From the IMG/VR virus record IMGVR_UViG_3300025110_000141, positions 1 through 22,717 of that record: a stretch of DNA of 22,717 nt; one strand, 5' to 3'. The notes beneath the pieces are model-generated. The model had not been told where the DNA came from, searched no databases, and saw only the letters and a program-made list of their open reading frames with translations. Each line of letters starts with the position of its first letter. Position 1 is the first letter of the stretch. Positions 3,572-14,419 of the stretch are shown piece after piece. This DNA is from a virus. The translations under genes were made by a program, and so were the position numbers.

Positions 3572-4870
3572 ATGGCATCAACATACACAGCGCTTGGCGT
3601 AGAATTAATGGCAACCGGTGAAAATGCCGGTACTTGGGGAACAAAAACAAATACGAATTTAAACATCATCGAGCAAATTGCTGGTGGTTTTACTACACAA
3701 TCAATAGCTGGAGGAGCACAAACTACAACTCTTTCGGTTTCAGATGGATCAACTGGTGCAACTCTTGCACACAGAATGATAGAATTCACAGGTTCAATTA
3801 CAGGAAATCAAATTGTAACAATACCTTTAGATGTACAAACTTTTTATTTTTTAAGAAATTCAACATCTGGTGCATACACAGTACAATTTAAATATGTATC
3901 AGGATCAGGTGATTCTTATACTTTCAGCGCAACAGACAAGAGTGATATCATAATATATGCATCAGCAAATGATGGTACAAACCCAGATATTATAACTTTA
4001 GAATTTGGTGCTGGAGATGTAACTCTTACAGGAACACAAACTTTAACAAACAAAACTTTAACTTCACCAAAAATTGGTACGTCTATTTTAGATACTAGTG
4101 GAAATGAATTAGCTTTATTAACAGCTACAGGTTCTGCAGTTAACGAATTTACAATAGCTAACGCAGCTACTGGAAACGGACCTACTCTTTCATCTACTGG
4201 TGGCGATACGAATATTGACATTAACGTAACTCCAAAAGGAACTGGGGACGTTGTTCTTGCGGGTGACACTGTAAAAGTTGGAGACTCAGGAGCAGCAGCT
4301 GTCCTAACTTCTAATGGAGCTGGTACTCTTACAGTAACTACTGGTGGAGCAACTGATTTAGTTTTAAATACAAATAGTGGTACAAACTCTGGATCATTTA
4401 CAATCACAGATGCAGCTAACGCTGACATGACTATGGCACCTAATGGTTACGGAAGATTTACTATCGATGGTCAAGGTAAGATTGAAAGTCTTGCTGAAAA
4501 AATTACAGTAGAAGCTACAGCGGCTACTGGTACAAAAAATTATGACGTTTTAACTCAAGCAGTTTGGTACTACACTACTGCAGCATCGGGTAACTGGACT
4601 CTAAACATTAGAGGTGACGGTTCTACTTCTTTAAATGATATTATGGATGCTGGAGAGTCAGTTACAATAGCACACTTAGTTACACAGACTGGAACAGCTT
4701 ATTATAATAACGCTGTAACAATAGATGGTTCTTCTATAACTCCAGAGTGGCAAGGTGGAGCTGCACCTACTGCAGGTAATGTTAACTCAATCGACACATA
4801 CACTTATACTATTATAAAAACGGCAGATGCTACATTCACAGCGTTGGCCGCACAAACACAATTCGCATAG
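3572..4870 (+). CDS. Phage tail fibre protein
   Basis: This 432-residue protein starts at an ATG 7 bases after an AAGGAG ribosome-binding site. The N-terminal part (1-145) resembles the opening of many phage fibre proteins (LMATGENAGTWGTKTNTNL, later FYFLRNSTSGAYTVQ). At 151-168 comes the widespread fibre motif LTGTQTLTNKTLTSPKI. A Thr/Gly/Asn-rich shaft follows (170-300), with NVTPKGTGDVVLAGDTVKVG typical of long fibres. The C-terminal 120 residues (ITVEATAATG to TALAAQTQFA) form a distinct domain that I remember as recurrent in marine phage fibres. It should mediate host contact or carry the glycine-rich tip protein encoded next. Assignment as a fibre is strong; the receptor is unknown. Confidence 0.8.
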   Translation: MASTYTALGVELMATGENAGTWGTKTNTNLNIIEQIAGGFTTQSIAGGAQTTTLSVSDGSTGATLAHRMIEFTGSITGNQIVTIPLDVQTFYFLRNSTSGAYTVQFKYVSGSGDSYTFSATDKSDIIIYASANDGTNPDIITLEFGAGDVTLTGTQTLTNKTLTSPKIGTSILDTSGNELALLTATGSAVNEFTIANAATGNGPTLSSTGGDTNIDINVTPKGTGDVVLAGDTVKVGDSGAAAVLTSNGAGTLTVTTGGATDLVLNTNSGTNSGSFTITDAANADMTMAPNGYGRFTIDGQGKIESLAEKITVEATAATGTKNYDVLTQAVWYYTTAASGNWTLNIRGDGSTSLNDIMDAGESVTIAHLVTQTGTAYYNNAVTIDGSSITPEWQGGAAPTAGNVNSIDTYTYTIIKTADATFTALAAQTQFA

Positions 4871-4882
4871 GAGTAATTTAAT

Positions 4883-5785
4883 ATGCCTTTATTAGGAACT
4901 CGAGGAGCCGCTTCTGGAAGAGGTTTCGGACAGACTGGTGGACCAAATGCTAAATACATTGATGCATCTGGAGGTACAGTAACTACTAGCGGAGATTACA
5001 AAATTCATACATTTACAGGACCTGGTACCTTTACTGTTAACGCAGCAGGTAACGAAGCAGGATCTGAGGCCGTTGATTATTTAGTTATAGCAGGCGGCGG
5101 AGGCGGTGCTGGAAGGCACGGGGGAGCCGGAGGAGCAGGCGGTGTTCGTGAGTCAAACGGAGACGGCGGCTGGTCTGGAAGTCCCAGAGCTGCAGGATCA
5201 GGTGTTGTAGTAACTGCACAAGGATATCCAGTTTCTGTTGGAGGAGGTTCAGGCGGCGGTAGCCGAGGATCAACTTCATCTGTTGTATCAAAAGAATCAG
5301 CAGGCGGAGGAGGCGGAGGCTTCTTCAATAACTCTCCACATTCAGGAGAGCCAGGAGGCTGTGGCGGAGGATCTGGAGGCGGCTTTGGCGGCTCTACAGG
5401 CGGAGGATCAGGAAATACTCCAAGTCAATCCCCACCACAAGGTTCAAATGGTGGATCAGGCGCAAGCTCAGACGGAGACGGATCTGGAGGCGGCGGAGGC
5501 GGAACGCTTAACACCGGACAACCTACACCTAACAACAGAACTCCAGGACAAGGCGGAAGCGGAATCACAACATCAATCTCAGGATCACCTACAGCTTATG
5601 GCGGTGGTGGAGGCGGAGGATCTAATGGTCCTTCTGCATCAGGTGGATCTGGTGGCGGTGGAAGCACGAACGGATCTGGCGGCACAAACCAAGGCGGAGG
5701 CGGAGGTGGAGGTACCTCTGGACACGAATCACCTGGAGGATCAGGCGGTAGTGGAGTAGTAATTATAAGGTATAAATATCAATAA
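4883..5785 (+). CDS. Glycine-rich tail fibre tip / receptor-binding protein
   Basis: This 300-residue protein has an N-terminal segment of about 60 residues with a beta-like stretch (KIHTFTGPGTFTVNAAGNE). It then has DYLVIAGGGGG, the standard entry to glycine-rich domains of phage fibres, and a low-complexity body of Gly, Ser, Pro and Asn up to residue about 288. It closes with SGVVIIRYKYQ. Known glycine-rich fibre adhesins (for example gp38 of T-even-type phages) fold as packed polyglycine helices that display variable loops for receptor recognition; a similar role is inferred. The gene is much richer in G (GGC/GGA codons) than its AT-rich neighbours, as expected from its amino-acid content. 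The long open frames in other phases and on the other strand across it are by-products of this composition. Confidence 0.7.
   Translation: MPLLGTRGAASGRGFGQTGGPNAKYIDASGGTVTTSGDYKIHTFTGPGTFTVNAAGNEAGSEAVDYLVIAGGGGGAGRHGGAGGAGGVRESNGDGGWSGSPRAAGSGVVVTAQGYPVSVGGGSGGGSRGSTSSVVSKESAGGGGGGFFNNSPHSGEPGGCGGGSGGGFGGSTGGGSGNTPSQSPPQGSNGGSGASSDGDGSGGGGGGTLNTGQPTPNNRTPGQGGSGITTSISGSPTAYGGGGGGGSNGPSASGGSGGGGSTNGSGGTNQGGGGGGGTSGHESPGGSGGSGVVIIRYKYQ
5087..5752 (+). repeat. Low-complexity glycine-codon tract
   Basis: GGC, GGA and GGT codons dominate, producing GGCGGAGGCGGA-like runs. The tract is imperfect, mixes synonymous codons, and is interrupted by Ser, Asn, Pro and Thr codons. It may be prone to slippage or recombination, which could vary the fibre tip. 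Confidence 0.6.
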
Positions 5786-6216
5786 TGGCACATTTTGCAA
5801 AAATAGATGAATCAAACGTGGTACTACAGGTACTTAAGGTAAATGATGAGGATGCTGCTACTGAAGCTGCAGGCCAAGCTCATTTAAATACACATAATAA
5901 CTGGCCAGCTAATCTTTGGATACAGACTTCTTATAACACTTGGGAAGGACAACACAAATTAGGTGGATCACCTTTTAGAGGAAACTATGCATGTATTGGT
6001 TATACTTGGGATTCAGTTAATGAAATATTTTGGGCACCTCAACCCTATGCTTCATGGACAAAAGATAACGCAACTGCAAGTTGGGTTTCACCCGCAGGTG
6101 CTGAACCAGCATTAACATCTGAACAAACACAACAAAATTTAGATGGAACACATGGTTGGAAATATAATTGGAATGAAGGAAATCAGTCCTGGGATTTAGT
6201 TGACGGACTAGAATAA
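5785..6216 (+). CDS. Small conserved phage tail-associated protein
   Basis: This 143-residue, Trp- and Asn-rich protein begins at an ATG overlapping the previous stop by one base. Landmarks are the start AHFAKIDESNVVLQVLKV, a central QTSYNT, PFRGNYACIGYTWD, WAPQPYASW and a C-terminal half with repeated Trp (ATASWVSP, HGWKYNWNE, QSWDLVDG). I remember the same opening and the GG-PFR-NYA-IGY-W/Y-D core from small proteins next to fibre genes in cyanophages and pelagiphages, where they have no settled function. The location after the tip gene fits a fibre accessory or chaperone-like role, but this is inference. It is the last structural-type gene before the oxygenase block. Confidence 0.6.
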   Translation: MAHFAKIDESNVVLQVLKVNDEDAATEAAGQAHLNTHNNWPANLWIQTSYNTWEGQHKLGGSPFRGNYACIGYTWDSVNEIFWAPQPYASWTKDNATASWVSPAGAEPALTSEQTQQNLDGTHGWKYNWNEGNQSWDLVDGLE

Positions 6217-6237: not shown

Positions 6238-6849
6238 ATGTCCTTAGTGATACCATTGTTTGCAACACCCATAAATTTATCTACTTTAGATATATCCGAT
6301 AAAGAACAAGATAGTATTGAAAAGACTCTACAGAGTTTAAAATACGGTCCTACAAATCAAAGCGGTGGTGCAGGAATAAGTAAAGATTTATTTCTGTTTA
6401 ATAATAAAAAATTTAAATCATTACATAAAAAAATTCTAGACTGTGTCTGTTTGTTTAACGAACAGGTCATGGGTTATAAAAAAACAAAATTTAAACTAAC
6501 AACATCTTGGGCTACGATTTGTAATAATCAAGAAGAATCAGAAAGACATAAACATTGTAATAGTATGTACTCAGCTGTTTATTATAACAAATGTAGTGAC
6601 AGTGTTGCTGACATAGTATTCTATAATAACAATTGGGCCAGTAATAATTATGATTTAGAGACGGTTGAAAGCAATCATTTTAATTCTAGTTATTGGTCTA
6701 TCCCACCAAAAGATAAGCTATTAATAGTATTCCCTTCTTCTATGTATCATAGGATATCTAAGAGCCATGACAATAAAACAAGATATTCAATAGCCTGTAA
6801 CTTTGTTCCCGTGCCTCCTTATGGGTATATGGATAGTTATAATATTTGA
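6238..6849 (+). CDS. 2OG-Fe(II) oxygenase, TIGR02466-like
   Basis: This 203-residue protein is predicted to use 2-oxoglutarate, O2 and Fe(II) to hydroxylate an unknown substrate. The N-terminus IPLFATPINLSTLD fits the opening of the TIGR02466 / 2OG-FeII_Oxy_5 group. The core follows: SWATICNN (90-97), then the metal region RHKHCNSMYSAVYY (H104, H106) and VFPSSMYHRI (H171). R182 in TRYSIACNF is placed to bind the 2-oxoglutarate carboxylate. The usual HxD/E dyad is absent; the family instead shows HxH followed by NS. Which second residue binds iron cannot be decided from sequence. The ATG has an AAGAGG site 6 bases upstream, the best in the block, so this gene probably leads translation of the cluster. 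Confidence 0.8.
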   Translation: MSLVIPLFATPINLSTLDISDKEQDSIEKTLQSLKYGPTNQSGGAGISKDLFLFNNKKFKSLHKKILDCVCLFNEQVMGYKKTKFKLTTSWATICNNQEESERHKHCNSMYSAVYYNKCSDSVADIVFYNNNWASNNYDLETVESNHFNSSYWSIPPKDKLLIVFPSSMYHRISKSHDNKTRYSIACNFVPVPPYGYMDSYNI

Positions 6850-6852
6850 TCT

Positions 6853-7404
6853 ATGTCAATGATTAAAGAAGTTATTTTTGATAAAAAAGAAATTAAACTT
6901 ATAACTGACTACGTATTAGAGAATGAAAAACATATTAAAAGTTTGGGTCCATCAATATATCCTGGAACCGCTAAAGATGCTTTGACAGGAAGGTACATGA
7001 TTTTTAATTTTTTAAACTCCCCTATAGGAGATATACTTAAATATAAAATCTTTAAGTTTTTACATAAAAATAATATTCATGAACCTTGTGCCATACAATG
7101 TTGGGCTAATACATTTAGAAAAGGTGAAGGCATTAAACAACATAGACATCAAGTAAAAGACCACGAGTTGTTTCTATGTGCAAACATATTTATAAAAGGG
7201 GATCCTAATTTAGGTACGACATATATTATAGATGGTAAGCATGTGAATGTTAAAAATAAACCTGGAGAAATAATGCTGTTTAATTCTAGACTTGAGCATT
7301 ATGTTGACAAAAATCCCAAAGATAGTATAAGAATATCTATAGCATTAGACATACATGAAAGAACTATATTTAACGATACAAAAAGATTTTACAATTGGGT
7401 ATGA
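6853..7404 (+). CDS. 2OG-Fe(II) oxygenase family protein (HxH type)
   Basis: This 183-residue protein has a helical N-terminus (about 1-75) followed by a double-stranded beta-helix pattern. Features in order are CWANTFRKGE (83-92), the metal motif KQHRHQ (H97, H99), a strand LFLCANIFI (106-114), NKPGEIMLFNSRLEHYV with distal H149, and R160 in IRISIALDI for 2-oxoglutarate. Like its upstream neighbour it shows HxH and not HxD. The two are clearly diverged in sequence, so a recent tandem duplication is unlikely. It starts 3 bases after the previous stop and ends in an ATGA overlap with the next gene. Substrate unknown. Confidence 0.75.
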   Translation: MSMIKEVIFDKKEIKLITDYVLENEKHIKSLGPSIYPGTAKDALTGRYMIFNFLNSPIGDILKYKIFKFLHKNNIHEPCAIQCWANTFRKGEGIKQHRHQVKDHELFLCANIFIKGDPNLGTTYIIDGKHVNVKNKPGEIMLFNSRLEHYVDKNPKDSIRISIALDIHERTIFNDTKRFYNWV

Positions 7405-7910
7405 TTAAAGAGACTTTATCAGAACTAGATTTTTATCACGGTAATGTAAAATTACCAAAAGGAATTTCTTTAGATATGGAATCTTTTAGAGCGGATATTT
7501 TATATTATAGTTCTACTGATAAACCTTTTCCAATGTCTAGAAATTTAGATATATTACATACGTACATAAGTGATTATTTTAATTTAAATTTTGTAAGACA
7601 TTTAATTATTAGAGACACGTTTGGTTTAATAATACAACCAAATGAACAAACTCCGACTATCGTAGAAGCAGACCCCATGGATTTAATAAATGCACCTGAT
7701 TATGTAATGCTCTATGGCGTTAAAGTTAAAGAAGAATCTTGTCCTGTGACTATAGAGTTTGATGATAAAAGACAGAAAAATAGATGGTATAAAAGAAAAT
7801 TAAAAACTAATTCATTTATGATATTCCCAAGCACTTTGACCTACAAAATAGAGAAGAATGAATCTAGTGACACAAATTATATCATGAAATGTACTTATGA
7901 ATCTAAATGA
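7401..7910 (+). CDS. Ligand-less DSBH-like protein, probable oxygenase-derived pseudoenzyme
   Basis: The ATG at 7401 overlaps the previous stop as ATGA and is preferred over an in-frame TTG at 7395, giving 169 residues. The second half has the strand pattern of its neighbours: LIIRDTFGLIIQP (68-80), DYVMLYGVKV (100-109), CPVTIEFDD, a basic KRQKNRWYKRK, then SFMIFPSTLTYKI (138-150) and a closing strand NYIMKCTYE. The FPS element matches the FPSxxxH motif of active members, but the expected distal His is Tyr148. At the proximal site TIVEADPMD offers no HxD/E. It therefore looks like a relative that cannot bind iron in the usual way, perhaps a partner or scaffold. Alternatively it could be another beta-sandwich protein. 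Confidence 0.6.
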   Translation: MIKETLSELDFYHGNVKLPKGISLDMESFRADILYYSSTDKPFPMSRNLDILHTYISDYFNLNFVRHLIIRDTFGLIIQPNEQTPTIVEADPMDLINAPDYVMLYGVKVKEESCPVTIEFDDKRQKNRWYKRKLKTNSFMIFPSTLTYKIEKNESSDTNYIMKCTYESK

Positions 7911-8547
7911 TTATTACTGGTATTTTGAATCAGCCATACCTGCTGAAGTTTGTGATAAGATTGTTAAAGCAGGTCTAGCTAAGCAAGAAGAAGAAGCTTT
8001 AACCGGTGGTCTGTCTCTTAGTAAAAAATTAAAATTAAAAAAGAAAGAATTATTAGATCTTAAAAAATTAAGAATTTCAAACGTATCTTGGCTAGATGAT
8101 AGATGGATATACGATGCTATACAACCATATATTCATAAAGCAAATAAAAGTGCCGGTTGGAATTTTGAATGGGATTACAGCGAAACTTGTCAGTTTACAA
8201 AATATAAAAAAGGCCAGCACTACGGCTGGCATTGTGATGCATGGCCAATGCCATATGGTGCAGGAAGTGAAGCAAATGATTTAAATAAAAATACAATAGG
8301 AAAAATTAGAAAGCTATCTGTTACAGTTAGTTTGTCGGACCCCAAAGATTATACAGGCGGCGAATTAGAATTTGATTTTAGAAATACTAATCCGGATAAA
8401 AAACATAATCGACAGACGTGTAAAGAGATACGACCTAAAGGAAGTGTTGTCGTATTTCCTAGTCATGTTTGGCATAGAGTTAAGCCAGTAACGAAAGGAG
8501 TAAGGTATAGTCTAGTAATTTGGAACCTAGGTTATCCTTTTAGATAA
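7897..8547 (+). CDS. 2OG-Fe(II) oxygenase, PiuC/PKHD-type prolyl-4-hydroxylase-like
   Basis: This 216-residue protein is the most classical oxygenase of the block. FTKYKKGQHYGWHCDAW carries the HxD dyad (H112, D114). RKLSVTVSLSDPKDYTGGEL (138-157) is the standard PKHD core. GSVVVFPSHVWHRVKPV supplies the distal H193, and GVRYSLVIWNLG carries R203 for 2-oxoglutarate. A lysine-rich insertion (about 42-58) precedes the core. Family members hydroxylate protein or small-molecule substrates; the phage substrate is unknown. The ATG at 7897 lies 14 bases inside the upstream gene with no clear ribosome-binding site, so translation is probably coupled to it. It ends in a TAATG junction with the next gene. 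Confidence 0.9.
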   Translation: MNLNDYYWYFESAIPAEVCDKIVKAGLAKQEEEALTGGLSLSKKLKLKKKELLDLKKLRISNVSWLDDRWIYDAIQPYIHKANKSAGWNFEWDYSETCQFTKYKKGQHYGWHCDAWPMPYGAGSEANDLNKNTIGKIRKLSVTVSLSDPKDYTGGELEFDFRNTNPDKKHNRQTCKEIRPKGSVVVFPSHVWHRVKPVTKGVRYSLVIWNLGYPFR

Positions 8548-9005
8548 TGGACTACCGACTAGAAAAAAATTTCTTACAGTTTAAAAAAGAATTAGACTTT
8601 AACAAACTAAGTAAACTAATGGCGGAGAATAATTTTCAAAGTAGGATTATGTCGACCCATCCTGAGAACTATTTATTGGACAGTATTTTTCAAATACGAA
8701 ATATTCAAGATGAAGTTTTCTTTACAGAAATGTTTAATCAAATGAATAATATGTTTAATAAAGACAATAGAAGAACAACTTTAGATCTATTTTTTTCTTT
8801 TGCTAGAGGTGCAAGAGGAGATAACCATAAGGACCAGGAATCTGTCAATATTTTAGGAGCGTATGGTAGGACAATGTATTTTATAAATAACAAAGAAATT
8901 GTATTAGAAAAAGGAGATAGGTTATTTATCAACAAAGGTGTAGAGCATAGAGCAATAGGTTTAACACCAAGAATAATTTTATCGTTTGGTATATTTGATG
9001 GCTGA
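8547..9005 (+). CDS. Small 2OG-Fe(II) oxygenase / cupin-like protein
   Basis: This 152-residue protein has a helical N-terminal half (about 1-75) and a compact beta core. FSFARGARGDNHKDQESV carries HxD (H94, D96). After the turn GAYGRTMYFINNKEIVLEKGDRL, NKGVEHRAIG supplies H134, and PRIILSFGI supplies R142. Spacing of about 40 residues between the HxD and the distal His, plus the GDRLFI turn, is cupin-like. It could equally be a minimal 2-oxoglutarate oxygenase; the context favours the latter. It begins at an ATG sharing one base with the previous stop and lacks a strong ribosome-binding site. Substrate unknown. Confidence 0.7.
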   Translation: MDYRLEKNFLQFKKELDFNKLSKLMAENNFQSRIMSTHPENYLLDSIFQIRNIQDEVFFTEMFNQMNNMFNKDNRRTTLDLFFSFARGARGDNHKDQESVNILGAYGRTMYFINNKEIVLEKGDRLFINKGVEHRAIGLTPRIILSFGIFDG

Positions 9006-9678
9006 TTTTAAAAAAGATAAATATGAAATAATTAAAAAAGCAATTCCAAAAGTCTTGTCGGAGTTTGCCTACAATTACATGTTGATCAAAAAACAAGTAG
9101 CGGCGACGATGTTTTATAGTAATTTTTTACACAAGGACCAAACTGAATGGGGGACTTTTAGAGACCCACAAGTGCCTAATACTTTTTCTATCTATGGTGA
9201 TCCAGCCATGGAAGCTTTGTTATTAAAAACCCAACCTGTTATTGAGAAATCTATAAACGATAAACTATTACCGACTTACTCTTACGCAAGAGTTTATAAA
9301 AAAGGCGATATACTACAAAGACACAAAGATAGAATAAGCTGTGAGATATCAGCTACTATGAATCTTGGTGGAGATCTTTGGCCTATCTATTTAAATCCTG
9401 ATCCAAAAGCAGGATACGTACATGGTAAACCAAGAGGCATACATAAAATTCAAACGTACCAACCATCAACAAATAAAAAAGAAATTAAAGTTAATTTAAA
9501 ACCAGGAGACATGCTTCTTTATTCAGGCTGTGATCTGGAGCATTGGAGAGAACCTTTTGAAGGTAGAGATTGTGCACAAGTCTTTCTACATTATAATAGA
9601 TCAAGCCTTGGGGAGAAAAACATATTTGATAATAGAAAACATTTAGGATTACCAGTTGACTTCAAAAACAAAGTATAA
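8998..9678 (+). CDS. 2OG-Fe(II) oxygenase, marine-phage type (CEISATxNLGG)
   Basis: I place the start at the ATG at 8998, 8 bases inside the upstream gene, and not at the TTG at 8986; this gives 226 residues. Features in order are YARVYKKGDILQRHKDRISC with HxD (H109, D111), EISATMNLGGDLWPIYL (116-132) and LKPGDMLLYSGCDLEHWREP with distal H182. GRDCAQVFLHYN closes the core. A substrate-facing insert (about 133-162) separates the strands. This arrangement is one I remember from many marine cyanophage and pelagiphage genomes, usually annotated only as 2OG-Fe(II) oxygenase. The 2-oxoglutarate-binding basic residue is less obvious than in the neighbours; R190 near the end of the core is one candidate. 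Substrate unknown. Confidence 0.85.
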   Translation: MADFKKDKYEIIKKAIPKVLSEFAYNYMLIKKQVAATMFYSNFLHKDQTEWGTFRDPQVPNTFSIYGDPAMEALLLKTQPVIEKSINDKLLPTYSYARVYKKGDILQRHKDRISCEISATMNLGGDLWPIYLNPDPKAGYVHGKPRGIHKIQTYQPSTNKKEIKVNLKPGDMLLYSGCDLEHWREPFEGRDCAQVFLHYNRSSLGEKNIFDNRKHLGLPVDFKNKV

Positions 9679-10183
9679 AGTAATAGATAATTTTTTAGAT
9701 GAGGACACTTATAATAAGTTCTCAGCGTATCTTAAGTCAGAAACAGTACCTTGGTATTTTAGAAGTATTGACACTACTATGGGCGATACTAAAAACAAAA
9801 ATGGTTTCTTTTCTTTTTGTTTTTACAACGACCATGCACCTAATCATGATTCATTCTATGAGTTTATGCCACCTTTTATTAAACAATTAAAAGCAGAGGC
9901 CTTAATACAAATTAGGGCCAATTTAACTTTTAGAGATATCGATGCCAGAGAATCTGCTTTTCACAATGACTATTTATATAAAAACTCTGTAACAGGAATA
10001 TTTTATCTAACCACTTGTAATGCAAAGACTGTTCTTGATTTACCTGGTGTCAATAAATCTGTGGAAAGTGTGGAGAATAGAATGTTGTTATTCCCTACAA
10101 AAATAAAACATAATGTTTTATATCAAACCGATGTCCACAAAAGGTATGTGGTTAATTTTAATTTTTTTAGTGGCCAATGGTAA
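9656..10183 (+). CDS. 2OG-Fe(II) oxygenase, TTG start
   Basis: No ATG exists in the first 40 codons. The TTG at 9656 has AGGA at 9645-9648, 7 bases upstream, and preserves the conserved-looking opening KYKVIDNFLDEDTYNKF, so TTG is the likely start (175 residues), 23 bases inside the upstream gene. Residues about 85-107 (IQIRANLTFRD ... SAFHNDY) carry HxD (H103, D105). A strand VTGIFYLTT follows, then RMLLFPTKIKHNVL with H152 and KRYVVNFNF with R163. All three metal ligands and the 2-oxoglutarate Arg are therefore readable. The NDY and FYLTT elements are familiar from marine phage oxygenases. Substrate unknown. Confidence 0.85.
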   Translation: MTSKTKYKVIDNFLDEDTYNKFSAYLKSETVPWYFRSIDTTMGDTKNKNGFFSFCFYNDHAPNHDSFYEFMPPFIKQLKAEALIQIRANLTFRDIDARESAFHNDYLYKNSVTGIFYLTTCNAKTVLDLPGVNKSVESVENRMLLFPTKIKHNVLYQTDVHKRYVVNFNFFSGQW

Positions 10184-10503
10184 AAGATTTTACAAAACTT
10201 TTAAAGAATAAAAATTATCCAAAACGTAAATGTAGCTGGCATGTCGAAGGCATATTACATAAGAAAACAAATAAATCTTACAAGTTTGATCTATCTCCTA
10301 TTAGAAAATTTACAGATGGGTCTGAAGGTAAAGAGGGGTTCTTCAAAACAAAAGCAGATAAAACAGTATTTGATTTTAATAAACAATGGGTTATATTAGA
10401 TAACGAAGAGTTACATGAGTTTCTAAAAGAGAGAAATATTAAAGACATAGCGCTAGAAGAATTAATTAAAACACTAACATGGAACATAATAATAAATAAA
10501 TGA
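10177..10503 (+). CDS. Unknown small basic protein within the oxygenase block
   Basis: This 108-residue protein is Lys-rich, particularly in the first half (VKDFTKLLKNKNYPKRKCSW). It has a single CSWHVEG segment, a middle with alternating charged and aromatic residues (SYKFDLSPIRKF, GFFKTKADKTVFDF), and a C-terminal helix-like segment (NEELHEFLKERNIKDIALEE). I see no HxD/E dyad, no FPS-H element and no other recognised motif, so it differs from its neighbours. It overlaps the upstream gene by 7 bases and the downstream gene by an ATGA, so it is fully built into the translational chain. It could be a partner, a substrate or a small nucleic-acid-binding protein; none of these can be supported further. 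Confidence 0.6.
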   Translation: MVKDFTKLLKNKNYPKRKCSWHVEGILHKKTNKSYKFDLSPIRKFTDGSEGKEGFFKTKADKTVFDFNKQWVILDNEELHEFLKERNIKDIALEELIKTLTWNIIINK

Positions 10504-11177
10504 ACTGGCCTTTAATAGTTGCAGATGATTTTTATAGAGACATTGATCTTTTAAAACAATTTTGTGAGAAACAAAACTATGCTGCCGGTTTAAATTTTCC
10601 AGGATTTAGAACAGATCCTGTGCATGAAATAAACAATAACTTGTTTCAAGAAATTGCACTTAAAACTTTAGCAGTATTATATCCAGACAACTACAGAAAC
10701 TTATCTTTTGAAGCAACGTCGTACATACAACGTGTTCCACCAAACTTAGTAGATGGGTGGGTCCACTCTGATTCAGATAGTCAAATAACTTCTATTTTAT
10801 ATTTAAATAAAAATATAAATGCAGGAACTTCTTTGTTTAGACCGGTCGTACCTTCTCCGGATATAAATAGTTTTTCTTTTGATAAAAGATCATATTATCA
10901 AAGAGTGAACAATCTTGATAAACTAACTAAGAAAGAAGATGAAATTTTTACAAAAATAAGAACTGAGAATAATGATCAGTTTAGAAAAACTTGTTTTATT
11001 AATTCAGAATACAATAGATGTATTATGTTTGACGCTGTTGAATATCATGCAGCAGAAAACTTTTACTCTGATACTAACGAAGATAGATATACTTACATTA
11101 CTTTTTGGCATCAGTTGTGGGACAAAGGTAAACAACTAAACCCACACCTTACTACCTCAAGAAGAGTTATACCTTAA
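10500..11177 (+). CDS. 2OG-Fe(II) oxygenase, DUF6445-like
   Basis: This 225-residue protein starts at an ATG overlapping the previous stop as ATGA. Features in order are an N-terminal VADDFYRDIDLLKQF, then SYIQRVPPNLVDGWVHSDSD with HxD (H89, D91), TSILYLNKN and AGTSLFRP (98-114). A long charged insert with helix character (about 120-165) follows. The distal half has EYNRCIMFDAVEYHAAENF with H183, and DRYTYITFWH with R196. The W-(V/I)-H-x-D, ILYLN and GT-LF sequence is the pattern I associate with the DUF6445 branch of the Fe/2OG superfamily, common in marine phages and alphaproteobacteria. The substrate is not known for this branch. Confidence 0.85.
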   Translation: MNWPLIVADDFYRDIDLLKQFCEKQNYAAGLNFPGFRTDPVHEINNNLFQEIALKTLAVLYPDNYRNLSFEATSYIQRVPPNLVDGWVHSDSDSQITSILYLNKNINAGTSLFRPVVPSPDINSFSFDKRSYYQRVNNLDKLTKKEDEIFTKIRTENNDQFRKTCFINSEYNRCIMFDAVEYHAAENFYSDTNEDRYTYITFWHQLWDKGKQLNPHLTTSRRVIP

Positions 11178-11713
11178 TGGATAACTTCATACATGAGTCA
11201 ACAATAAATAAAACTGTTTGTGAAGACATACTTAAATATTATTTAGATAATCAAGACAAGCATTTAAAACCAGACTTTGACGAAGAAGTAAAAACATCAA
11301 CCGAGATACCTATTTCAGTAAACAATAATATGTATCCTTTCAATGAATATAAAACAGGGTTACAGAAATGCATAAATGAATACAGAGAAAAATATCCAGA
11401 AGTAGATACTCTATTAGAAAAATGGAGTTTAGTTGAAGACTATAATATTCAATACTACAAACCAGGTCAGGGATTTAAAAAGGTACACTGCGAAAGGGGT
11501 TGTGCAGAGGCATCAAAAAGAGTTCTAGTCTTTATGACCTATCTTTCTACTTTAGATAATGCAGGAACCATTTGGCCAAAACAAAAATTTAAATCTGAAT
11601 GTGTTCTTGGTAACACTATAATATGGCCTACAGATTGGACTTACTCCCACGTAGGAGTCGTAAATGAATATAAAGATAAATGTATTGTAACAGGATGGTA
11701 TAGTTTTGAATAA
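11177..11713 (+). CDS. 2OG-Fe(II) oxygenase (HxE type)
   Basis: This 178-residue protein begins at a TAATG junction. DYNIQYYKPGQGFKKVHCE carries an HxE dyad (H104, E106), followed by RVLVFMTYLSTLDNAGTIWP (115-134). VLGNTIIWPTDWTYSHVGVV supplies the distal H158, and the closing strand DKCIVTGWYSFE carries K168 where the 2-oxoglutarate-binding basic residue is expected. This overall pattern (HxE, YL-D/N, GTxW/F, WP-WTH-H-G, K-I-TGW) is well known from cyanophage and marine phage oxygenases. It differs from the neighbours by Glu in place of Asp and by Lys in place of Arg, both accepted variants in the superfamily. Substrate unknown. Confidence 0.85.
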   Translation: MDNFIHESTINKTVCEDILKYYLDNQDKHLKPDFDEEVKTSTEIPISVNNNMYPFNEYKTGLQKCINEYREKYPEVDTLLEKWSLVEDYNIQYYKPGQGFKKVHCERGCAEASKRVLVFMTYLSTLDNAGTIWPKQKFKSECVLGNTIIWPTDWTYSHVGVVNEYKDKCIVTGWYSFE

Positions 11714-12224
11714 GATAAAGAGAATAGACAGTTATTATATTGTAACACGGATCAAAGAACATAAAGAAATTAAAAATAAACTCCTTAATCTAATTAGTCA
11801 AATACCCAGAAACAGCTATGAGAACATTACCCACACTGATTGGAGCTTACCTAAAGATTATAAGAGAGAATATTTAGATTATTTTTACACGATAATAAAA
11901 CCCTATATAGATGACATGAGAGATCTCCTTAAGGAGAAGACTTGTGAGATTCAAAACGGTTGGTTTCAACAGTATTACCAAAACGACTTTCATCAATGGC
12001 ACAGGCACGCTAAGACAAATTTTGCAAATGTGTATTATCTTGAACTGCCGGATAAGAAAATGACAACAAAAATTAGACCTATTTTAAATGGTAAAAAGGT
12101 ACAAAATTTCGTAGCTAAAGAGGGAGACCTAGTAACTTTTCCTGCCATGATGCAGCACACGTCTGAAAAATCTAGTAGCAATTTGAGAAAAACTATTATA
12201 TCATTTAATAGCGATTTTTACTGA
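11706..12224 (+). CDS. 2OG-Fe(II) oxygenase family protein (HxH type), TTG start
   Basis: The frame has no ATG until codon 71, well inside the protein. The TTG at 11706, 10 bases after an AGGA at 11692-11695 and 8 bases inside the upstream gene, is the likely start (172 residues). A basic helical N-terminus is followed by WFQQYYQNDFHQWHRHAKTN (H96, H99, H101) and ANVYYLELPD (107-116). EGDLVTFPAMMQHTSEK then gives the distal H151, and RKTIISFN gives R161. The FHxWHxH cluster resembles a phage oxygenase group with an HxH proximal motif; which pair binds iron is not decidable from sequence. It is the last gene of the block. Confidence 0.78.
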   Translation: MNKIKRIDSYYIVTRIKEHKEIKNKLLNLISQIPRNSYENITHTDWSLPKDYKREYLDYFYTIIKPYIDDMRDLLKEKTCEIQNGWFQQYYQNDFHQWHRHAKTNFANVYYLELPDKKMTTKIRPILNGKKVQNFVAKEGDLVTFPAMMQHTSEKSSSNLRKTIISFNSDFY

Positions 12225-12241: not shown

Positions 12242-14419
12242 ATGCTACAGAAACTAGGATTTTTACCCGGATTTAACAAACAAGTCACCGAAACTGGGGC
12301 CGAAGGCCAATGGTTTGATGGAGATAATGTACGGTTTAGATATGGATCACCTGAAAAAATAGGTGGTTGGAGTCAATTAGGACAGGATAAACTTACCGGT
12401 GCGGCAAGAGCAATACATCAATTTGAGAACAAAGACAGTGTTAAATATTCTGCTATAGGTACAAACAAAATTTTATATGTATATGTCGGTGGTCAATATT
12501 ACGATATCCACCCTATTAGAACAACTTTAACTGGAGCCAGCTTTTCAAGTGACGCTTCAACTCCCACAGTTACAGTAACATGTACCGGGGACCATGGATT
12601 ACTAGAAGGCGATATTGTTTTATTTGACAGTGTATCAGGGTTAAGTGGATCTACATTTACCGACGCATCATTTGAAGACATAAAATTTATGGTTGCTTCA
12701 ATTCCTACTTCAACTACTTTTACTATTACAATGGCAGCTGTAGAATCAGGAACTCCTTTATCTACTGATGGATCAGCTTCTGTTTTGTGTTATTACAATG
12801 TTGGTCCTTCTCAACAACTAGGTGGCTTTGGATTTGGAGCAGGTAACTTTGGGGGTCAAACTAGCGGAGCAGCAACTACAACACTAGCTTCTGGTATTAA
12901 TGATACAGTAACTAATATTCCTTTAACCAGCTCTTCTGCTTTTCCGGCATCTGGAGAAATTAGAATTGGGTCAGAGGACATAAGCTATACAGCTAATAAT
13001 ACTTCTACAAATATTTTAAGTGGAGGTGCAAGAGAAGTTAATGGTACAACCAAAGCATCACATAGTGGGGGAGCTACAGTTACAAATATTTCTGAATACG
13101 TTGCATGGGGAGAATCCTCAACAGCACAAGATTTTACTATTGATCCTGGACTATGGGTTTTAGATAACTATGGTCAAAAGTTAATAGCACTTATTTACAA
13201 CGGCCCTTGTTTTGAATGGGATGGGTCTCCAACAAATGCGGTTAATAGTAGGGCAACTCTTTTACCAAACGCCCCAACAGCATCGCGTCATGTGTTGGTA
13301 TCTACACCTGATAGACACTTAGTATTTTTTGGAACAGAAACAACAGTAGGAACTAAAACTACACAAGATGATATGTTTATTAGATTCTCTGATCAAGAAA
13401 ATATTGATGGTACAGATTCATATACAGTAACTGCAGAAAATACCGCAGGTACACAAAGACTGGCCGACGGATCAAGAATCATGGGAGCTATCAAAGGTAG
13501 AGATGCTATTTATGTGTGGACTGATACAGCATTATTTTTGATGCAATTTGTTGGTGCACCTTTTACTTTTTCTTTTCAACAAGTAGGTACAAACTGTGGA
13601 TTAATAGGCAAGAATGCTTGTATTGAAGTAGACGGTAAAGCTTATTGGATGTCAGAGAATGGTTTCTTTACTTATGATGGACAATTAAACTCACTACCTT
13701 GTTTAGTAGAAGATTTTGTATACGATGATATTAATACTACATCAAGAGATTTAATTAATGCGGGTCTTAATAATTTATTTGGTGAAGTCTCTTGGTTTTA
13801 TTGTAGTTCAGCATCTGATGCGGTTGATAAAGTAGTTACCTTTAACTACTTAGATTCATCTGTTAAAAGAACTATTTGGACAACCGGAACATTAGCTAGA
13901 ACAGCATGGGAAGATTCTGCGTTGTTTGATAGACCCCACGCAACATACTATAATTCTTCTGATGATGCATCGTACGATGTTGTTGGTAACACGGACGGAA
14001 GTACAATATACTATAATCAGGAAACAGGGACCGATCAAGTTAACGCTGGTGGGGCTGTTACAGCTGTAATAGCAAGCATATCTTCAGGTGATTTTGATAT
14101 CACTCAAAAAAGAAGTACCAGTGGGGCGACTGTAGGTATGCCCGATCTTAGAGGGGACGGTGAATTTATTATGAGAATAAGTAGATTTATACCAGATTTT
14201 ATAGACCAAACAGGAACGACTGCGATCAAATTTAAAACAAGAATATATCCAAATAGCGCACAGGTTACAAATAGTTTTACTTGTACCTCTTCTACAACTA
14301 AAAAAGATGTAAGAGTAAGAGCTAGACAAATTGCGTTAGAAGTTGCAAACACGGGAGCAAATGAGAATTGGAAATTAGGAACATTTAGACTAGACATACA
14401 CCCAGGAGGAAGAAGATAA
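12242..14419 (+). CDS. Tail nozzle-like / P22 gp10-type tail stabilisation protein
   Basis: This 725-residue protein begins at an ATG after AGAGG. Its opening, GFLPGFNKQVTETGAEGQWFDGDNVRFRYG (in two parts, 6-35), is the hallmark start of a large beta-propeller-like tail protein found in many short-tailed phages. The central region includes the extra module at 212-282, then WVLDNYGQKLIAL, the FEWDG element, HVLVSTPDRHLVFFG and FIRFSDQENIDG. The C-terminal third has YWMSENGFFTYDG and ends in DVRVRARQIALEV plus WKLGTFRLDIHPGGRR, a typical closing segment. The nozzle seals the DNA channel and binds beneath the adaptor. An adaptor-like protein is encoded at 1177-1926, so the pair points to a podovirus-type tail. 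Identification is from memory of family patterns. Confidence 0.7.
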   Translation: MLQKLGFLPGFNKQVTETGAEGQWFDGDNVRFRYGSPEKIGGWSQLGQDKLTGAARAIHQFENKDSVKYSAIGTNKILYVYVGGQYYDIHPIRTTLTGASFSSDASTPTVTVTCTGDHGLLEGDIVLFDSVSGLSGSTFTDASFEDIKFMVASIPTSTTFTITMAAVESGTPLSTDGSASVLCYYNVGPSQQLGGFGFGAGNFGGQTSGAATTTLASGINDTVTNIPLTSSSAFPASGEIRIGSEDISYTANNTSTNILSGGAREVNGTTKASHSGGATVTNISEYVAWGESSTAQDFTIDPGLWVLDNYGQKLIALIYNGPCFEWDGSPTNAVNSRATLLPNAPTASRHVLVSTPDRHLVFFGTETTVGTKTTQDDMFIRFSDQENIDGTDSYTVTAENTAGTQRLADGSRIMGAIKGRDAIYVWTDTALFLMQFVGAPFTFSFQQVGTNCGLIGKNACIEVDGKAYWMSENGFFTYDGQLNSLPCLVEDFVYDDINTTSRDLINAGLNNLFGEVSWFYCSSASDAVDKVVTFNYLDSSVKRTIWTTGTLARTAWEDSALFDRPHATYYNSSDDASYDVVGNTDGSTIYYNQETGTDQVNAGGAVTAVIASISSGDFDITQKRSTSGATVGMPDLRGDGEFIMRISRFIPDFIDQTGTTAIKFKTRIYPNSAQVTNSFTCTSSTTKKDVRVRARQIALEVANTGANENWKLGTFRLDIHPGGRR
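12875..13087 (+). other. Beta-rich module shared with the 335-1174 protein (copy 2)
   Basis: This covers residues about 212-282 of the nozzle-like protein. TTLASGINDTVTNIPL, FPASGEIRIGSEDISYT, ILSGGAREVNGTT and SHSGGATV parallel the landmarks of the copy at 704-991. Most homologous tail proteins remembered from other phages do not need this module, so it is probably a mobile decoration domain. Confidence 0.55.

Follow-up and report, generated by a model that had tools for sequence, protein, structure and literature searches.

Predicted 2-oxoglutarate oxygenase genes packed beside the fibre-region genes of a marine phage: a possible island for tailoring virion proteins

The window analysed here, 22,717 bases long, is the IMG/VR virus record IMGVR_UViG_3300025110_000141, a fragment of a genome whose relatives are 53-61 kb. 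Judged by its proteins, the phage is a marine virus of bacteria and a relative of the HTVC023P-type (SAR11) podoviruses; its nozzle/stabilization-type protein has 43-47% identity, over the alignment, to the counterparts in 023Pt_psg01, HTVC027P, HTVC023P and DSL-LC04, and a nucleotide search of the window against phage records gave no match. Eleven short plus-strand genes, g1 to g11, are packed at 6238-12224 with junctions that mostly overlap or abut, flanked upstream by genes for a Gly-rich protein (f2) and a small Trp-rich protein (f3) and downstream by the nozzle gene. This block, in which most genes are predicted Fe(II)/2-oxoglutarate (2OG) oxygenases, is our subject. Its genes are listed below with expect values (E) and with motif residues taken from family alignments.

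g1, 6238..6849, plus strand: 2OG-Fe(II) oxygenase-like (2OG-FeII_Oxy_5; PF13759, E 1.5e-16; phrog_81, E 5e-38); HxH...H (H104xH106/H171).
g2, 6853..7404, plus strand: 2OG-Fe(II) oxygenase-like (PF13759, E 8e-10); HxH...H...R (H97xH99/H149/R160).
g3, 7395..7910, plus strand: conserved putative pseudo-oxygenase; predicted double-stranded beta-helix fold, metal motif lost, Tyr for the distal His.
g4, 7897..8547, plus strand: 2OG-Fe(II) oxygenase (PF13640, E 6e-16; phrog_61); HxD...H...R (H112xD114/H193/R203).
g5, 8547..9005, plus strand: cupin/JmjC-like oxygenase of 152 aa; HxD...H (H94xD96/H134).
g6, 8986..9678, plus strand: phrog_2954 'ferrochelatase', re-assigned here as a 2OG-Fe(II) oxygenase-fold protein; HxD...H (H113xD115/H186).
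g7, 9656..10183, plus strand: phrog_274 'DNA endonuclease V', re-assigned here as 2OG-Fe(II) oxygenase-like; HxD...H...R (H103xD105/H152/R163).
g8, 10177..10503, plus strand: conserved 108-aa non-oxygenase island protein.
g9, 10500..11177, plus strand: DUF6445/phrog_1644 protein; HxD...H...R (H89xD91/H183/R196).
g10, 11177..11713, plus strand: 2OG-Fe(II) oxygenase-like (phrog_61, E 1e-23; PF13640, E 0.0019, below the cut-off); HxE...H...K (H104xE106/H158/K168).
g11, 11706..12224, plus strand: 2OG-Fe(II) oxygenase-like (PF13759, E 2e-8; phrog_81, E 2e-25); HxH...H (H99xH101/H151).

We assign g1, g2, g4-g7 and g9-g11 to the Fe(II)/2OG oxygenase type by their double-stranded beta-helix (DSBH) fold and consider them predicted enzymes. 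The listed residues are 90-100% conserved across the family alignments, except the Glu (75%) and Lys (77%) of g10; the metal-binding motif alone is 93-100% conserved in all nine families, again apart from that Glu. The HxD/E...H triad is present in g4, g5, g6, g7, g9 and g10. The invariant HxH...H of g1, g2 and g11 is a family-wide departure from the canonical carboxylate, and because HxH replaces HxD/E the chemistry of these three may differ. A conserved Arg or Lys follows the distal His in g2 (R160), g4 (R203), g5 (R142), g7 (R163), g9 (R196) and g10 (K168), and is not clear in g1, g6 and g11.

Pfam 2OG-Fe(II) families were found above the cut-off for g1, g2, g4 and g11, DUF6445 for g9, and PHROG 2OG families for g1, g2, g4, g10 and g11. 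HH profile comparison joins g1, g2, g4, g7, g9, g10 and g11 (most pairs at 85-99.9%, g4-g9 at 15%), with further ties of g3 to g11 (94%), g5 to g7 (76%) and, weakly, g6 to g1 (38%); g8 is tied to none. The fold assignment rests on an AlphaFold2 model and Foldseek for g6, on profiles for g7, g9 and g10, and on weak cupin/JmjC matches for g5, whose profile resembles cupins and ribosomal-oxygenase hydroxylases; searches of PDB sequences with the g6 and g9 profiles gave nothing useful. The first-pass annotation of this DNA had proposed nine motif-bearing oxygenase genes of the DSBH fold plus one degenerate relative. The conserved motifs and the motif-less DSBH protein g3 bear out that count, and profile searches and structure prediction bear out the fold.

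Three of the names attached to these families call for revision. The AlphaFold2 model of g6 (mean predicted local distance difference test score, pLDDT, 94.2) has as its best solved match the prolyl 4-hydroxylase (P4H) of Pseudomonas putida (Foldseek E 9e-9, probability 1.00); other matches include human PHYHD1 and PHD-type prolyl hydroxylases such as PHD2, at moderate template-modelling (TM) scores of 0.44-0.63, and the best 50 solved-structure matches are all 2OG oxygenases. A ferrochelatase Pfam match was found in none of the 62 g6-family members at E 0.1. By modelled fold and motif, then, phrog_2954, widely annotated as 'ferrochelatase' in pelagiphages and cyanophages, is best read as a 2OG oxygenase. 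The ecological conclusions on haem in the literature depend on that name, and the re-reading takes away support for the haem/ferrochelatase story in two published surveys. For g7, the Pfam matches at E up to 1 were all to 2OG families and none to pyrimidine-dimer glycosylases; its HxD...H...R is conserved and its HH links to g1, g2, g10 and g11 stand at 96-98%. The PHROG names 'DNA endonuclease V' (g7, phrog_274) and 'minor coat protein' (g9, phrog_1644) look wrong for what appear to be oxygenase-like proteins.

The name of g7 is one reason to consider that the enzymes repair phage DNA in the manner of AlkB or oxidise its bases; a role in DNA repair has been proposed before for such genes (PMC3037559), and genes for DNA hypermodification exist in the HTVC023P-type lineage according to the searched text of PMC9599517. 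We consider this highly improbable. No AlkB or TET/JBP Pfam match was found in g1-g10 at E up to 1 or in g11 at E up to 0.1, a sub-threshold AlkB-family match occurs in only 3 of the 62 g6-family members, and the block sits among structural genes. DNA oxidation had already been ranked low on the ground that no glycosyltransferase is visible. Of the two grounds the Pfam results are the stronger: a gene unseen in a mere fragment says little, and in HTVC023P and HTVC027P a glycosyltransferase is annotated downstream.

The two remaining genes are of other kinds. The g3 model (pLDDT 93.4) has 2OG dioxygenases as its best Foldseek matches (E 4e-7), and every match listed is either such an enzyme or an uncharacterised protein with the same fold. 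The alignments show no HxD and no distal His: the distal position is Tyr in 88% of 68 g3-family sequences, and the family also conserves Asp102 and Tyr107. A few distant members keep His at one position, as would be expected had an active ancestor lost the motif. The gene, present in 54 of the 91 islands described below, has dN/dS (ratio of nonsynonymous to synonymous substitution rates) of 0.21-0.43 against 0.05-0.23 for most others, and is thus constrained, but less so. The 'degenerate' relative has indeed lost its motif; since its homologues have the same loss, however, we regard g3 as a conserved pseudo-oxygenase rather than a decaying gene. The other, g8, occurs in 41 of the 91 islands, commonly directly upstream of the nozzle gene; it has no PHROG family, and Pfam searches with its homologues gave only scattered weak matches.

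Neither assembly error nor gene decay accounts for the block. It was recovered in contigs of three other assemblies, at 99.7-99.9% identity over the overlaps and 98.4% over the longest alignment; two of these contigs run from g1 or g3 to the nozzle gene and beyond and the third reaches only g3, which rules out an assembly chimaera as its origin. All testable block genes are under purifying selection (dN/dS 0.05-0.43; g2, having no close relative, was left out), and at the BLAST level almost no pair of them is alike; together these rule out decay and recent tandem duplication. The exclusion of tandem duplication made at first reading holds for recent events, but g1, g2 and g11, as well as g4 and g10, are relatives at the profile level, and one related island has four g7-family genes.

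To place the block among its relatives we scanned IMG/VR and annotated relatives with nozzle, g3, g8 and g6, obtaining 318 sequences including the window; this sampling is non-random, as three of the scans were baited with island genes and the best matches were kept. The usual slot of the island in relatives lies between f2/f3 and the nozzle gene. Among 91 dereplicated complete islands there are 0-10 oxygenase-type genes (median 5), the window being the maximum of the set; the nozzle-sampled subset (n=28) has 1-10, with a mode of 5. The most widespread gene is g4, in 87 of the 91, and g6 is in 80. Total cargo is 442 oxygenase-type genes against 93 others. Content can change while the backbone stays close: in L006, with an 89% identical nozzle, the genes of the island either have no match or stand at 23-56% identity.

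Truncated phage-like contigs binned with bacterial metagenome-assembled genomes (MAGs; L348 and L349) hold up to 11 oxygenase-type genes, and with the nine of Synechococcus phage S-SM1 (see below) they lead us to reject the window block as a unique record in size. The cluster size that had drawn attention is real, the other assemblies agreeing, but it is not unique. The phage-type cluster is found in L336, L340-L345, L348 and L349, titled as Maricaulis, Flavobacteriaceae and Verrucomicrobia MAGs; these are probably phage contigs binned into MAGs. In L345, four g7-family genes stand in a row at 7069-9050, a possible local expansion, in an island that also has a tryptophan halogenase. Islands in L003 (12295-13956), L013, L068, L187 and L235 lie wholly or partly on the minus strand in the same slot; therefore the island can flip or swap in either orientation.

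The genes that flank the block in the window are the following.

f1, 3572..4870, plus strand: conserved fibre-region protein upstream of the module (phrog_31104/5906).
f2, 4883..5785, plus strand: Gly-rich fibre-region protein (Gly_rich_2, PF21722); family about 30% Gly.
f3, 5785..6216, plus strand: small Trp-rich 'MAHFAK' protein (phrog_7759); family 5.2% Trp, with several near-invariant Trp.
Nozzle gene, 12242..14419, plus strand: nozzle/stabilization-type virion structural protein (phrog_3287, E 2e-94), closing the island.

We take f2 to be probably a receptor-binding component and f3 probably a fibre component. Further upstream, the protein at 335-1174 of the window scores with the nozzle-family profile, probably through a shared repeat domain.

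Island content is co-inherited with f2 and f3 and not with the nozzle. In Mantel tests (N=71), it correlated with f3 at 0.53 and with f2 at 0.41 (permutation p=0.001 for both), against 0.03 for the nozzle and -0.05 for f1; over the range of tests, r was 0.30-0.54 for f2 and 0.40-0.63 for f3, and both correlations persisted at identity thresholds of 0.3-0.6. Both ends of the island track f3: even the nozzle-proximal oxygenases correlate with f3 (0.37) and not with the adjacent nozzle N-terminus (0.01). For loci drawn by the nozzle only (N=22), the values were 0.40 for f3 (p=0.0045) and -0.12 for the nozzle. Taken gene by gene, distances correlate with those of f3 at 0.82 for g3, 0.68 for g4 and 0.61 for g6, and with those of the nozzle at about 0 throughout. 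We infer that f2, f3 and the island may be swapped as a cassette.

The same pairing occurs well outside the podoviruses. Modules of f2, f3 and oxygenase genes are found in T4-like cyanophages and pelagimyophages (S-SM1, S-RSM4, S-MS29 and HTVC008M, with f2-f3 on the opposite strand in the last). Among twelve records picked by oxygenase match alone, all eight with clusters of at least two such genes have them adjoining fibre or tail genes or f2 homologues, and the remaining four, where such genes are single or scattered, lack that neighbourhood (a hand count, with no statistical test). In cells, Polaromonas and two MAGs have a g6 homologue and a P4H-like gene after a large Gly/Ala/Ser-rich repetitive protein, and Mucilaginibacter and Methylomonas have g6 homologues near asparagine-synthase-like and 2OG genes. 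Three such records, L356 (1-6982, Polaromonas), L368 and L375, pair the cellular g6 homologue with a second 2OG gene, beside the repetitive protein or beside asparagine-synthase-like genes resembling peptide-tailoring clusters. Both cellular contexts would be compatible with peptide or protein substrates.

The non-oxygenase genes of the islands also bear on function. Of the recognisable guest enzymes inserted between the oxygenases, most are of tailoring types: 19 tryptophan halogenase sequences (PF04820, E to 1e-108), 8 of carbamoyltransferases and 4 of sulfotransferases, together with methyltransferases; one haem oxygenase also occurs. A 31-sequence guest cluster is a structural-looking repetitive protein and no tailoring gene. 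Hydroxylation followed by carbamoylation, sulfation or methylation would, we infer, make coherent chemical logic.

Such oxygenases are common unexplained genes of abundant ocean phages, mostly read as metabolic. We give an even chance to the reading that the block is a variable tailoring island of the fibre (receptor-binding) module, its enzymes acting on the receptor-binding fibre proteins. With somewhat more doubt than belief, we extend this to a general proposal: that a mobile, combinatorial island for protein tailoring is shared by marine phages of at least two morphotypes. Made up of 2OG oxygenases, flavin halogenases, a pseudo-oxygenase and carbamoyl-, sulfo- and methyltransferases, it would decorate the phages' own receptor-binding fibres and so diversify host recognition post-translationally. 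The island enzymes would act on newly made f2, f3 and fibre proteins; most oxygenases would put hydroxyl groups on specific residues, which occasional guest enzymes would then carbamoylate, sulfate or methylate, while a halogenase would target aromatic residues. The pseudo-oxygenase g3 might be a binding or scaffold partner, which is a guess. A swap of cassette and fibre together would give the receptor-binding tip a different surface chemistry and thereby affect host recognition. Among the nearest solved structures are enzymes that act on proteins: for g6, PHD2, the viral collagen prolyl hydroxylase (vCPH) and the P4H solved with EF-Tu, and for g5, weakly, the L16 arginine hydroxylase. The suggestion of a dedicated multi-gene system made from the sequence at the outset gains support from these results; fibre or virion proteins, one of several targets then named, are the candidates favoured by the co-inheritance with f2/f3, by the module beside fibres in unrelated T4-like phages and by the tailoring guests. 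If true, the proposal would give phages a post-translational way to diversify receptor binding.

Several observations weigh against fibre tailoring. The labels given to f2 and f3 are based on position and composition; g7, taken alone, is uncorrelated (N=24); the locus set sampled through island genes is slightly correlated with the nozzle as well (0.13); and some cyanophages hold similar genes away from fibres. The Trp content of f3 is the same in islands with and without a halogenase, and we therefore do not claim a Trp-enriched f3 as its specific target. Physical linkage of neighbours, as of g3 close to f3, can also give co-inheritance without functional coupling.

This last point underlies the alternative that the island is a linkage hot spot, a permissive landing site downstream of the fibre genes whose oxygenases have their targets elsewhere in the infected cell and accompany f2/f3 simply by being neighbours. 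It predicts both the f3 correlation and its drop with distance from g3 through g4 to g6, and would suit the many cyanophages with such genes away from fibres. The nozzle is equally adjacent at the other end, yet it is uncorrelated even with the oxygenases next to it; the cargo is not general but predominantly oxygenase-type, its recognisable remainder being mostly tailoring enzymes; and podoviruses and T4-like myoviruses both have this pairing of fibre-region and oxygenase genes. We thus consider the hot spot unlikely, though to be taken seriously: that there is more than linkage is argued, not proven, by the asymmetric behaviour of the two neighbours and the specificity of the cargo.

Coupling to receptor-binding genes would be equally well accounted for if the enzymes modified the host surface late in infection, altering glycans or proteins of the envelope, perhaps so that superinfection or readsorption is blocked, with fibre type tracked through the shared receptor. 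Carbamoyltransferases and sulfotransferases, both present as guests, commonly act on glycans or small molecules, and in S-SCSM1 the oxygenase genes adjoin sugar-modifying genes. Pfam and PHROG scans recognised no glycan-pathway genes in the window, however, and placement inside a structural gene block fits better with virion assembly; we judge modification of the host surface improbable.

Auxiliary metabolism, in which the enzymes have small molecules of the host as substrates or deplete 2-oxoglutarate or iron and so steer host nitrogen or iron physiology, is the published view for cyanophages (PMC3037559) and for the 'ferrochelatase' pelagiphages (PMC9599517, PMC11561400), and host iron-uptake genes do rise in pelagiphage infection (PMC12753301). 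Consuming one co-substrate, however, needs no ten divergent enzymes with separate pockets; the 'ferrochelatase' partner is by prediction an oxygenase-fold protein, so that the haem link is gone; and island content tracks fibre type, not phage backbone. We regard this explanation as rather unlikely.

Turning to known systems, the nearest are the HTVC023P-type pelagiphages, of the same lineage and with the same gene families as the window, in which, according to the searched text of Wittmers et al. 2022 (PMC9599517), eight non-orthologous 2OG genes occur across genomes, in many cases near one another and next to one or two 'ferrochelatases'. There the 2OG genes are described as nearby, not adjacent, and the partner as a haem enzyme, whereas in the window ten genes are contiguous apart from g8 and the partner is of predicted oxygenase fold; in its searched text that paper is silent on halogenase, carbamoyltransferase, sulfotransferase and tail fibres. 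Both phrog61 and phrog2954 are seasonally enriched (PMC11561400), and Phold has found phage 2OG proteins with PHD-like folds (PMC12774648). Synechococcus phage S-SM1 has, at SSM1_049-061, f2-f3 homologues followed by eleven genes, nine of which belong to oxygenase-type families shared with the window. It differs in being a cultured T4-like myovirus of a cyanobacterium, and Sullivan et al. 2010 (PMC3037559), who also reported a 41-protein S-SM1 virion proteome, interpreted the 2OG genes in terms of nitrogen status and DNA repair, not of fibres.

Among single enzymes, the P. putida P4H (PDB 4j25/4iw3), the best fold match of g6, was solved with the protein EF-Tu but has only ~13% identity to g6 and no multi-enzyme island. 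The vCPH of chlorella virus PBCV-1 (PDB 5c5t) is a viral DSBH hydroxylase similar in fold to g6 (E 1e-6) and, by its name, an earlier case of a viral hydroxylase that acts on a fibrous protein; it is, however, a single gene of an algal virus with 11% identity, and the fibres of the window are Gly-rich or Trp-rich and not known to be collagen-like. YcfD/ROX, the 50S L16 arginine hydroxylase, shows a weak profile likeness to g5 and shares its HxD...H pattern, but g5 is much shorter (152 aa), the match is borderline (E 0.009) and plain cupins score better. We found no report of phage fibre hydroxylation in the open-access literature, which omits most subscription papers. Measured against that literature, co-located 2OG genes were already known in this phage type, and the coupling to fibre genes, the tailoring guests and the pseudo-oxygenase appear to be new.

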